Origin: Halieaceae bacterium
GTDB lineage: Bacteria > Pseudomonadota > Gammaproteobacteria > Pseudomonadales > Halieaceae
Direction of reading: 5' to 3'
DNA length: 64,000 nt
NCBI GenBank assembly: GCA_902623175.1
Contig: CACNSR010000012.1
Span: 1-64,000 of the forward strand
The position numbers were made by a program, and so were the translations under genes. This document shows, piece after piece, positions 21,712-27,037 of the stretch; the stretch's first letter is position 1, and every line of letters starts with the position of its first letter. Below the pieces are notes generated by a model that saw only the letters and a program-made list of their open reading frames with translations, did no database searches and was not told the origin of the DNA.

Positions 21712-21830
21712 GGCGACTCGGACAGCCACACCTCGGCACCCGAATCAGTAACTACCGTTGCTCCCTTCCGGGCCTGGCGGGGTTCATCACTTATCGCTGC
21801 GAGGGGACCATCCGAGTCACCACTGAGCCC
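21712..21830 (-). ncRNA. ffs: Bacterial small SRP RNA (4.5S RNA)
   Basis: Minus strand has GCCAGGCCCGGAAGGGAGCAACGG (SRP core) with closing stem GACTCGGA/TCCGAGTC; upstream of dnaX. Confidence 0.92.
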
Positions 21831-21910
21831 GCCTAGAGACGAGACCCGGTAGTGTCGCGAAAACCCTGCAGACACGCAAGCTGGAAGGCCAAAACCCGCT
21901 CTCTTCACAA

Positions 21911-21953
21911 AATGTTAATCGTATTTACATTTAATGTGAATCCGATTAACATT
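21911..21953. promoter_or_regulatory. 43-bp near-perfect palindrome; candidate operator of the RND/TetR operon
   Basis: AATGTTAATCGTATTTACATTTAATGTGAATCCGATTAACATT: 19 of 21 pairs symmetric about 21932; ends 44 bp before the adaptor start. Confidence 0.8.
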
Positions 21954-21997: not shown

Positions 21998-23140
21998 TTG
22001 AACCCGAATCTGATTAAATCCCTGTGGGCCGTGGCTTTGGCCATTGGCCTCAGCCTCGGCGGCACCGCGCTGATCAAAGCCAACAAGGTGACCACCACCT
22101 CAGTCGAGCGCACACCGATGCCAGTGGCGGCAACGCTTTACAGCCAGCAGGCCACTTTTACTCGGGATGCGCGATATCTTGGCGTGATTCGCGCAGGCTC
22201 AGACAGCGTAGTCGGTTTCGAGGTCTCGGGGGTGCTCACCAGCCTGACCGCGACCGAGGGTATGCGGGTGTCACCAGGTGATGTGCTCGCACAATTAGGC
22301 ACGGATCGCAGACAGGCACGTCTGGACGCTGCTGCTGCCGCCTTCGAGCGGGTCGTGGCAGAGCGGGCGCAATCTGAGGCGCGCGCTGAGCGGATTGCAC
22401 GACTGGTAGAGGCTGGATCAGCCTCAGAGCAAGACTACGACGATGCCAGATTCGCGGTACAAGCCCTCTCGGCCGCCGAGAACACCGCGGCCGCCCAGCG
22501 GCAGTCGGCGCAACTTGAGCTCGAAAAAAGCACGCTGCGCGCGCCCTATGAGGCCGTGGTGGCAGAGCGACTCGCCCAGACAGGCGCCGTCGTCGCGCCC
22601 GGTACACCAGTACTCCGACTAGTGACCGCTGCAGGCCGCGAGGCTCACGTGGGTGTGCCTGCTGATGTCGCGCGGCGACTTGTATCAGGACACACCTACT
22701 CGCTCTTGCTCCAGGGCGAGCAGGTCACGGCAGAGCTCCGCTCTATCCGTGACGATTTGGACCCCAACACCCTCACCGTAGGTACGGTTTTTGATCTGCC
22801 GGTCGATGCCCGTGTTGCGGTGGGAGAATCGGCGCTACTGCAGATTGCCGAAACGGTTAACTCCGCCGGCGGCTGGCTGCCTATCTCGGCACTGCTGGAG
22901 GCCCCCCGGGGTCTCTGGGACGTCCTCACGATCACACCGGATGCTGAGGGCAAGCAGCGAGCACAGCGAGAGAGTGTCGAAATTCTCTACACCCGAGGCA
23001 ACGAGGTGTTTGTGCGCGGCACCCTCGCAAACGAGGTGGCCGTGGTGGCCTCGGGCTTACAACGCATCAGCCCCGGGGATCTGGTCGAACCCGTTTTCGA
23101 TAGCGCCATGCCCAATACGGCAGCGGCGCCAGGCTCATGA
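21998..23140 (+). CDS. RND efflux periplasmic adaptor (HlyD/MFP)
   Basis: N-terminal TM, ISPGD/APYEAVVAERLAQTGAVVAPG lipoyl motifs. Confidence 0.93.
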   Translation: MNPNLIKSLWAVALAIGLSLGGTALIKANKVTTTSVERTPMPVAATLYSQQATFTRDARYLGVIRAGSDSVVGFEVSGVLTSLTATEGMRVSPGDVLAQLGTDRRQARLDAAAAAFERVVAERAQSEARAERIARLVEAGSASEQDYDDARFAVQALSAAENTAAAQRQSAQLELEKSTLRAPYEAVVAERLAQTGAVVAPGTPVLRLVTAAGREAHVGVPADVARRLVSGHTYSLLLQGEQVTAELRSIRDDLDPNTLTVGTVFDLPVDARVAVGESALLQIAETVNSAGGWLPISALLEAPRGLWDVLTITPDAEGKQRAQRESVEILYTRGNEVFVRGTLANEVAVVASGLQRISPGDLVEPVFDSAMPNTAAAPGS

Positions 23141-26100
23141 TCGCGAAACTGCTACACGCCAACACGCGCTATCTGGCGCTGGTAATTCTTGCCATTCTAG
23201 TGGTGGGCTATACCAGCCTGAGCGGCATGGCGCGCAAAGAAGACCCGGCCGTTACGCCGTGGTTCGCCTCAGTCCAGGTTTTCTTCCCGGGCGCGAGCCC
23301 CGCAAGAGTTGAGGCGCTGATTACCAAACCGATGGTCGATGCCCTCCGGGAAGAGTCCGATGTCATGGAGGTTGATGGCACGTCCGCGTCCGGTGTGTCA
23401 CTGATTTTCGTAGAGGTCGACTACAAAGCACCCCCGGCCCGACTGAAACAGATTATGGCTGAACTCCGCGACGTCGTTGACCGCGTGGCGATGACGTTTC
23501 CCGCCGGCACTTCGCCGCCTGACTTCGATGACGAAATCTGGACTGAATTCGTCAAGATTATTGCTATCAGCGGTGCTGACGGGCGCGAATTGTCGCCCGC
23601 GCAACTGCGAAGACAATCACTGCTGTTCGCTGATGCCGCACGCAGCGTGCCCATGACGCGCCGAGTCAAGCTATACGGGCTGCCCCATGAAGAGGTGCGC
23701 GTCGAACTCGACGAGACAAGGTTGTCGATGCTGGGCATTTCGATTGGCGAGATCTCCGCGGCGCTCGCTGAGGCCGATGCCAGGGCCCCTGCCGGCCAGC
23801 TAACCGGTGCAGGCGCCGCCTTGACAGTAGAACTGACCGGAGAGTTCACTGACCTCGAATCCGTGCGTAACGTGATCGTGCGCGGCCTGCCCGACGGACG
23901 CGCCATACGAATTTCTGATCTAGCTACGGTGCGTAAGACCGAGGTCACGCCATTTGAGAGCCTGTCACTTTCTAATGGCCAGCGCTCAGTGCTGATCGCC
24001 GCTGAGATGCAGCCGGGTTACCAAGTGGACCGCTACGGTGCGACATTCGATGCCTTCCTTGAGTCCTATCGTGCCGCCGCTCCCAATGGCGTGAGCATTG
24101 AGACCAGCTTCGATCAGGTGGGCTATAGCGTCGAGCGTCTGCTGAGCGTGGGTAAAAATTTATTGTTAGGCGTTATGCTGGTGATCGCGGTGCTACTGGC
24201 CACTCTAGGATGGCGAGCGGCACTAGTGGTCGCTGTAATCCTGCCGCTGTGCACGCTGATGTCAATGATCGCCCTCTTCTACCTGAAAATTCCGATTCAA
24301 CAAATGTCGGTGACGGGACTCGTAGTGGCACTGGGCTTGTTGGTTGATGGTTCCATCGTGATGACCGACGAGATTCGCAAGCGCCTGCTCGCCGGTCTAC
24401 CCCCGACCGAAGCGATGCGCCACGCCGTATCGCGCATGCGGATCCCGCTGCTGTCCTCCACTCTGACCACAGTGCTAGCTTTCATTCCAATGATCCTACT
24501 TCCCGGCGCCGGGGGGGACTTTTTAGGCTCGATCGCCGTAGCGGTCGTGGCGATGCTAGTGTCCTCTTTTGTGCTGGCAGTCGCCGTGACGCCAGTTCTG
24601 GCTTCCCGCTGGCTGCCCTCAGGCCTCGCGCTAGAGCGGCGGTGGTGGCGCGCAGGGGCCGACAACCAAAAATTGACGGATGCATTCCGACGCTCACTCG
24701 ATTGGTCTATTCGCAACCCTCTAGGCGCCTTCGCCCTCGCCCTGACGCTACCGCTGACCGGTTTCCTGAGCTTCAGTACCCTGACCCTGCAATTTTTCCC
24801 CGGCACCGACCGCGATCAAATGTATCTGGACGTCAAATTGCCCGAGGGAGCGTCGATTAACGATTCGCTGGCACTGGTCGAACAGCTCGATCAAAAGCTT
24901 CGCGCAGAGCCACTGATTCGCCGGGTCGACTGGTCGATTGGCGAGACTCCGCCGGAGTTCTATTACAACCTGCGTGCGAATACAAAAGGCGTACCGAGTT
25001 GGTCCCGGGCGCTGGTGTTAACCACCGATGAGAACCAAACCGACGCACTGATCCGAAGGCTGCAAAAAGAAATTGACTGGGAGTATCCCCAGGCGCAGAT
25101 TCTGGTTCGTGGCATCAACCAGGGGCCGCCGGTCGACGCGCCATTAGAGATCCGACTTTTCGGGCCCAGCACAGAAGTGCTGAAGACACTAGGAGAACAA
25201 TTCCGCCAGCGCATGTCCGCTCTGCCCGATATCACCCATACCAGAGTGTCCATGGCGCCGGCGCCGCCCAAGGTGGTCTTTGATCTCGACGAATCCGCTT
25301 TGAAGCGCGCCGGGCTCAGTAAGGCGGAGGTAGCGCAGGGCATCGAGAGCGCGCTGAAGGGTCGTGTCGGCGGCGAGTTACTCGAGGGGACCGAGCGGCT
25401 GCCGGTCCGGGCGATTTTGAAGCGCGAGGAATGGGATAGCACCGATGACCTCGCCAATATCCGGATTCCCGTGCAGCGCCGAGGCAGCAATACGCTGGTT
25501 CCCGCTGTGCCGCTTAGCGCACTGGGCAGTGTGTCGCTTATTCCCGATGAAAGCCCTATTGCGCGGCAAGATGGCGATCGATTGAATAACGTGCAGGGAT
25601 TTCTCAAGCGCGGCGTCCTTCCCGAGGAGGCTCTGAAAATGCTGGCGGCAGACTTACAGGCCAATCCGATCGCCCTCCCCAGCGGTTACTTTTTGGAGTT
25701 CGGTGGCGACAGTCAGGAACGCGGCGAGCTGATGCAGGACCTGATGGCGCCCATCGGTACAATCCTCGCCGCCATGCTGGCGACTATCCTGCTGACCTTT
25801 AACTCCTGGCGACTGACCGGCATTGCCTTTGGCGTCACCGGCTGCTCCTTTGGCCTCAGCCTTTTAGCGCTGGCAGTCTTCCAGTACCCGTTGGGTATTC
25901 AGGCACTGATTGGCGTCATTGGCTCAGTAGGTGTCTCGATTAATGCTGCAATTATCATTCTCAGCGGTCTCAAATTGAATGAACAGGCAAGCCTTGGCGA
26001 CCCCGATGCGATCGTCGATGTCGTCATGGACGCGAGTCGACACATCGTCTCAACCACTGCGACCACATTTGGCGGCTTCTTACCTCTGATTCTGGAGGGC

Positions 26101-26283
26101 AGCCAGTTTTGGCCGCCTTTCGCGATGGCCATTGCTGGCGGAGTGCTACTGTCGACCATCGTTTCTTTCTATCTCGTACCACCGCTCTACACCCTACTTA
26201 TGCATCCCGGAAGACACTTCCTCAAACCCAAAGTAGCGGTTGACGTTTCCGAAGCACCAATCGCTATGCATGAGGCAGCATGA
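23137..26283 (+). CDS. RND efflux permease (AcrB/HAE family)
   Basis: 1048 aa, duplicated RND architecture, 4-bp overlap with adaptor. Confidence 0.96.
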   Translation: MIAKLLHANTRYLALVILAILVVGYTSLSGMARKEDPAVTPWFASVQVFFPGASPARVEALITKPMVDALREESDVMEVDGTSASGVSLIFVEVDYKAPPARLKQIMAELRDVVDRVAMTFPAGTSPPDFDDEIWTEFVKIIAISGADGRELSPAQLRRQSLLFADAARSVPMTRRVKLYGLPHEEVRVELDETRLSMLGISIGEISAALAEADARAPAGQLTGAGAALTVELTGEFTDLESVRNVIVRGLPDGRAIRISDLATVRKTEVTPFESLSLSNGQRSVLIAAEMQPGYQVDRYGATFDAFLESYRAAAPNGVSIETSFDQVGYSVERLLSVGKNLLLGVMLVIAVLLATLGWRAALVVAVILPLCTLMSMIALFYLKIPIQQMSVTGLVVALGLLVDGSIVMTDEIRKRLLAGLPPTEAMRHAVSRMRIPLLSSTLTTVLAFIPMILLPGAGGDFLGSIAVAVVAMLVSSFVLAVAVTPVLASRWLPSGLALERRWWRAGADNQKLTDAFRRSLDWSIRNPLGAFALALTLPLTGFLSFSTLTLQFFPGTDRDQMYLDVKLPEGASINDSLALVEQLDQKLRAEPLIRRVDWSIGETPPEFYYNLRANTKGVPSWSRALVLTTDENQTDALIRRLQKEIDWEYPQAQILVRGINQGPPVDAPLEIRLFGPSTEVLKTLGEQFRQRMSALPDITHTRVSMAPAPPKVVFDLDESALKRAGLSKAEVAQGIESALKGRVGGELLEGTERLPVRAILKREEWDSTDDLANIRIPVQRRGSNTLVPAVPLSALGSVSLIPDESPIARQDGDRLNNVQGFLKRGVLPEEALKMLAADLQANPIALPSGYFLEFGGDSQERGELMQDLMAPIGTILAAMLATILLTFNSWRLTGIAFGVTGCSFGLSLLALAVFQYPLGIQALIGVIGSVGVSINAAIIILSGLKLNEQASLGDPDAIVDVVMDASRHIVSTTATTFGGFLPLILEGSQFWPPFAMAIAGGVLLSTIVSFYLVPPLYTLLMHPGRHFLKPKVAVDVSEAPIAMHEAA

Positions 26284-26900
26284 ACCAGACGCGCTGCAAC
26301 TATCACCATGGCGACCTGCGCAATGCGCTCATCATTGCCGCGGCCGAACTCATTGAGCGCGACGGCACCCTGGATTTCTCGATGGCTGAAGCGGCAGCCA
26401 GCGCGGGTGTCAGCGCTGCTGCGCCCTATCGACACTTCGCGGATAAAGAGGAGCTACTGCGTGCAGTGCGAGAGTTGGCGTTTCTTGGGTTGGGCTATGC
26501 CGCTGATGACATAGTTTCTGAATACCCTAGGGGCTCGGCGGAAGGCATTCTTGCGATGGGCCACATGTACCTCGCCTATGCTCGGGAAAAGCGCGCTTTC
26601 TTCTCGCTCATGTGGGAAGACCGTGGGGACATTGCCGAGCGGCGAGATAATGTGAGCGAGGAGCACGGCGGCTTTATGGTGCTGGTTGATCTGGTGAGCA
26701 CTTTTTGCGAGGCCAACGGACACGCATCAGTGAACAGCCTTCACCTAGCAACCCAAATCTGGTCAATGGGCCACGGCATTGCCACCCTGGAGGCCAACCA
26801 GTTGCTCGACCTGTTCGACCGCTCGATTCAACCCGAAACGCTTTTAGATGAAAGTGTGCGCACCATGTTGGCTGGCGTAGTAAGCGCACCCGCTGCCTGA
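26280..26900 (+). CDS. TetR/AcrR-family regulator
   Basis: N-terminal HTH YHHGDLRNALIIAAAELIERDG...AAPYRHFADKEELL; overlaps permease. Confidence 0.93.
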   Translation: MNQTRCNYHHGDLRNALIIAAAELIERDGTLDFSMAEAAASAGVSAAAPYRHFADKEELLRAVRELAFLGLGYAADDIVSEYPRGSAEGILAMGHMYLAYAREKRAFFSLMWEDRGDIAERRDNVSEEHGGFMVLVDLVSTFCEANGHASVNSLHLATQIWSMGHGIATLEANQLLDLFDRSIQPETLLDESVRTMLAGVVSAPAA

Positions 26901-26960: not shown

Positions 26961-27037
26961 CCGCCCGTAGCACAACTGGATAGTGCAACGGCCTTCTAAG
27001 CCGTAGGTTGCAGGTTCGAGTCCTGCCGGGCGGGCCA
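26961..27037 (+). tRNA. tRNA-Arg (anticodon TCT)
   Basis: Cloverleaf: acceptor CCGCCCG/CGGGCGG, loop CTTCTAA, T-loop TTCGAGT, encoded CCA. Confidence 0.95.

Follow-up and report, generated by a model that had tools for sequence, protein, structure and literature searches.

The 43-bp palindrome at positions 21,911–21,953 of the window (the whole stretch of Halieaceae DNA that was analysed, 64,000 nucleotides) is better read as a tandem of two 21-bp palindromes repeating with a 22-bp period. In all likelihood these are operators for the TetR-family protein encoded in the adjoining operon, which would bind each of them as one dimer and repress its own gene together with those of an efflux adaptor and permease. 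The paired sites very probably form a genuine genetic switch; others of its kind are known. Autorepression by this TetR had been proposed in an earlier sequence-only reading of the same DNA, and comparative evidence strongly supports that assignment of the regulator (conservation of the sites across Halieaceae, their absence together with the operon, and use of the same core by distant tetR homologues); the claims of that reading about nesting and operator length appear to be wrong.

Two adjacent palindromes ahead of an RND pump operon

The operon starts with an RND periplasmic adaptor gene (21,998–23,140, plus strand; TIGR01730, 165.5 bits against a cut-off of 94.9) read from a TTG codon, at which TTG or GTG is aligned in close relatives. 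An RND permease gene (23,137–26,283, plus strand; PF00873, 415 bits), whose closest solved structures by sequence are MexK and 6vej, overlaps the adaptor stop, and the permease stop is in turn overlapped by a TetR-family regulator gene (26,280–26,900, plus strand) that is syntenic in orthologues. Both regulator domains scored above gathering: the N-terminal TetR helix-turn-helix (PF00440, 41.5 bits versus 24) and the TetR-type C-terminal domain (PF13305, 44.9 bits versus 26.8). The profile matches and overlapping reading frames place the RND adaptor and permease in one operon and bear out the earlier placement of an adaptor–permease–tetR operon, regulator last, just downstream of the dyad.

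Right of tetR lies a tRNA gene (26,961–27,034). On the left flank of the dyad, outside the system, a divergent gene for the bacterial small SRP RNA (ffs; 21,717–21,813, minus strand; RF00169, 70.4 bits) is accompanied by dnaX, also on the minus strand. A stretch at 21,850–21,880 (TAGTGTCGCGAAA...GCAAG), conserved in the alignment of relatives, is read as the putative promoter of the SRP RNA itself (minus strand, TTGCGT-17-GACACT) and not as part of the operator.

The dyad is centred on position 21,932, and both its sequence and its coordinates agreed with the earlier reading. Recomputed pairing confirmed 19 of 21 positions, the highest of all 43-bp dyads in a scan of the whole window (runner-up 15/21). 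The best dyads in Markov-simulated windows (n = 20) reached at most 17/21, and under a binomial model ~4 × 10⁻⁵ dyads of 19/21 are expected per 64 kb. G+C content was 23% in the dyad stretch versus 58% in the window.

Each half of the dyad is itself palindromic, a feature that the sequence-only reading had overlooked along with the mirror-image hexamers on the minus strand and the SRP RNA gene on the other flank. Putative operator 1 (AATGTTAATCGTATTTACATT; 21,911–21,931) pairs with itself at 8 of 10 positions and putative operator 2 (AATGTGAATCCGATTAACATT; 21,933–21,953) at 9 of 10, neither being assigned a strand; a single T separates them and their centres are 22 bp apart. Both match AATGTnAATnnnATTnACATT perfectly. 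A pattern search of the 2.39-Mb Luminiphilus genome returned just these two perfect matches, and the remaining fits listed had three mismatches each.

Conservation of the sites and of the promoter

Phylogenetic footprinting, suggested earlier as a check, found the palindromic sites kept upstream of orthologous operons, whose named relatives were Luminiphilus and other Halieaceae. The sites occupied the same place in orthologous loci, ~4.3–4.4 kb before tetR, and at least one was present in every distinct orthologous Luminiphilus operon with upstream DNA (31/31 loci). A pair was retained in 24 of these loci and a single copy in 7; the second site is therefore not indispensable, and the unit is 21 bp. 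With lone 21-bp sites kept in orthologous loci, the proposal of an unusually long composite operator was not borne out. Among the 24 pairs the period was mostly 22 bp (16 loci), otherwise 21 bp (5), 23 bp (2) or 20 bp (1). Two additional loci, L140 and L042, stand outside the count of 31 owing to misplaced search windows, and the pair is present in both; L044 belongs elsewhere and was not counted among Luminiphilus loci. When 14 close relatives were aligned, conservation formed an island coinciding with 21,911–21,953, and the central 3 bp of each site varied.

Matches with at most one mismatch were found in 24 of 57 Luminiphilus genomes, and all 24 carried one in the gap upstream of the adaptor gene. 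The sole additional match of this quality in those genomes fell within an oxidoreductase gene (G041). In five genomes with sites and no tetR match (G023, G024, G031, G041 and G050), the contig stops short of the expected tetR position. One genome assembled as a single contig (G056, 99% complete) had neither an orthologue of the operon's tetR nor the palindrome; dnaX and the SRP RNA gene were present there, with an island similar to that at 21,850–21,880.

In G055 (contig C6, 58,798–59,406; the region of L042 and L130), the tetR match is interrupted by three stop codons, the adaptor match is fragmented and the paired sites are intact, a state that could reflect sequencing errors or operon decay. 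Genome G006 (L032, L030) carries two tetR relatives of this type on separate contigs, at 66% and ~52–55% identity, and the copy having upstream DNA shows a single site.

In other Halieaceae genera, the pair was present in 19 of 20 operons with a spacing of 20–22 bp. The lowest-scoring of the 19 was L215; at the exception, L211, the adaptor match is merely fragmentary. Three of the paired loci (L200, L202 and L204) have the operon and both sites with no SRP RNA or dnaX match in ~1.5 kb of upstream DNA. Taken with the absence of operon tetR and palindrome from G056, these loci indicate that the sites follow the operon.

A consensus scan recovered both hexamers of the promoter named in the sequence-only reading, TTTACA (21,924–21,929) and TAACAT (21,947–21,952), with a 17-bp spacer. 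The first lies in the right arm of operator 1 and the second in that of operator 2; together they would form the promoter of the operon (21,924–21,952, plus strand). A mirror-image hexamer pair occurs on the minus strand, as a palindromic dyad would lead one to expect. In the Luminiphilus tandems, right arms were more strictly kept than left arms; position 16 was T in 18/24 left sites and A in 21/24 right sites (Fisher p ~3 × 10⁻⁵, kinship ignored), a bias that fits a -35 element of TTTACA and a -10 element of TAACAT. At loci of the other genera (L197–L216), a TTGAC -35-like motif stood just left of operator 1 (15/19 loci), and TAACAT-like letters were found in the right arm of operator 1. With a -35 outside operator 1 in those genera, the hexamers named for the window are candidates only. 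Promoter-like hexamers overlap both sites in the window and the -35 position differs between genera: the operator pair seems to have kept its place as the promoter register shifted, and Luminiphilus seems to have lost the outer TTGAC and to use hexamers inside the operators.

Proposed repressor arrangement and its alternatives

In the arrangement that we infer, the TetR-family repressor made from the last gene of the operon would bind as one dimer per 21-bp operator. The two dimers would sit adjacent to each other and on the same face of the DNA, since the 22 bp between site centres amount to about two helical turns. Together they would cover the -35 and -10 elements and turn off adaptor, permease and tetR alike, until a ligand, probably a pump substrate, released the repressor.

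Several characterized systems resemble parts of this arrangement. By sequence, the nearest solved permease belongs to MexJK of Pseudomonas aeruginosa. MexL, which is linked to MexJK, is a TetR-family repressor like the regulator here, a likeness at family level. In Tn10, as is proposed here, promoters are overlapped by two palindromic operators (tetO1 and tetO2) through which a repressor acts on its own gene and on an efflux gene (PMC3037858, PMC3511530); however, Tn10 tetR is divergent from tetA, whereas the present tetR closes the pump operon, and the two sites here nearly touch, unlike tetO1 and tetO2, and differ from them in sequence. An experimental precedent for the predicted layout of paired palindromes over an efflux promoter under a TetR-family repressor is FhtR of Enterococcus faecalis, which binds two palindromes, P1 and P2, in the -35/-10 region of the hrtBA efflux promoter, either of them alone being enough for repression (PMC7858072). 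Its palindromes are 14 nt long, its transporter is a different (heme) exporter and its inducer is heme.

The sequence-only reading had instead placed nested dimers on a single 43-bp operator, one on the outer arms and one on the inner arms. The whole 43 bp does pair at 19/21 and both sets of arms are symmetric, but any tandem of two like symmetric sites is bound to be symmetric about its own centre, which accounts for the apparent nesting of the arms. Moreover, seven orthologous loci have a lone 21-bp site, the spacing is not fixed (20–23 bp), and in distant homologues the 19-bp core occurs singly or as cores 19–45 bp apart. Judging from TetR–DNA structures, a single TetR dimer could not span the outer half-sites of the 43-mer. 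With side-by-side 21-bp sites and loci that have just one of them, two nested dimers were not borne out, and we regard this arrangement as very unlikely. Somewhat less improbable, though still unlikely, is an arrangement like that of QacR and CprB, in which pairs of TetR-family dimers share one operator region (PMC6018408, PMC4150764) and would here bind each 21-bp unit from opposite faces, at sites that overlap. Such binding is known for several family members including CprB (PMC6018408, PMC4150764), itself a weak sequence match to this TetR. However, there are two separate sites here, each a plain palindrome around a single central base, which a review describes as the usual operator (among PMC6018408, PMC4150764).

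The palindrome might alternatively belong to the divergent SRP RNA/dnaX side, or serve as a promoter for both directions, since the minus strand has mirror-image promoter hexamers and most relatives have the SRP RNA and dnaX as neighbours. We consider this extremely improbable: a conserved island of its own lies upstream of the SRP RNA, with a similar one in the palindrome-free G056; L200, L202 and L204 keep the operon and the pair where SRP RNA and dnaX matches are missing from the ~1.5 kb upstream; and conservation is lacking at the positions of the minus-strand hexamers (position 6 in each site). Tandem 21-bp operators for the operon's own TetR remain much the most likely reading.

A shared core upstream of distant tetR genes

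Fifty-seven distant loci were picked by protein similarity only. The core ATGT-N11-ACAT occurred in the interval -250 to +20 relative to the tetR match in 30 of them (expected count 0.2 by Markov shuffling, or 0.13 judging by the remaining sequence of those loci), although several Corallococcus loci are closely related and the 30 are not independent events. Loci with the core came from cyanobacteria, myxobacteria, mycobacteria and others. Many had two cores; the spacing was 22 bp in two loci from myxobacteria and ranged from 19 to 45 bp in the others. Across L044–L100, several phyla share this core ahead of tetR relatives, frequently as a pair (19–45 bp).

About half of the distant homologues had no ATGT-N11-ACAT core in the upstream region searched. 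The whole PF13305 family was rejected as the carrier of the operator, the core being present in just 3 of 28 gammaproteobacterial members, a rough lower bound because reading frames were chosen mechanically and some are wrong; two of the three have a YHHG/APYRHF-type DNA-binding region. Given its absence from about half of the distant homologues and most PF13305 members, the operator appears to follow a helix-turn-helix sub-group. YRHFADKE is conserved in the distant set partly through selection, this peptide having served as a search seed. Comparison by eye did not bear out a simple dependence of the operator letters on one residue of the recognition helix. Literature searches for the operator letters and for the name 'WHG domain' found nothing relevant.

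We lean slightly towards a broader reading, in which a TetR sub-group with a YHHG-L start and an APYRHF-type recognition region shares one operator grammar, ATGT-N11-ACAT. That grammar would reach from Halieaceae to cyanobacteria, myxobacteria and mycobacteria, with tandem sites a frequent form. The recognition code could then be worked out from natural variation, and in Halieaceae the two sites would keep a distance of about two helical turns as the promoter changes position around them.

The analysis also corrects a general trap, as tandem palindromes always mimic one long nested palindrome. The switch itself is of a known kind, and the shared operator grammar is a useful side lead: it offers a large natural alignment from which to learn how TetR-type proteins recognise DNA and why the pairs hold a spacing of about two helical turns. 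For marine Halieaceae, the outcome firmly predicts which protein regulates which operon, and through exactly which DNA sites.
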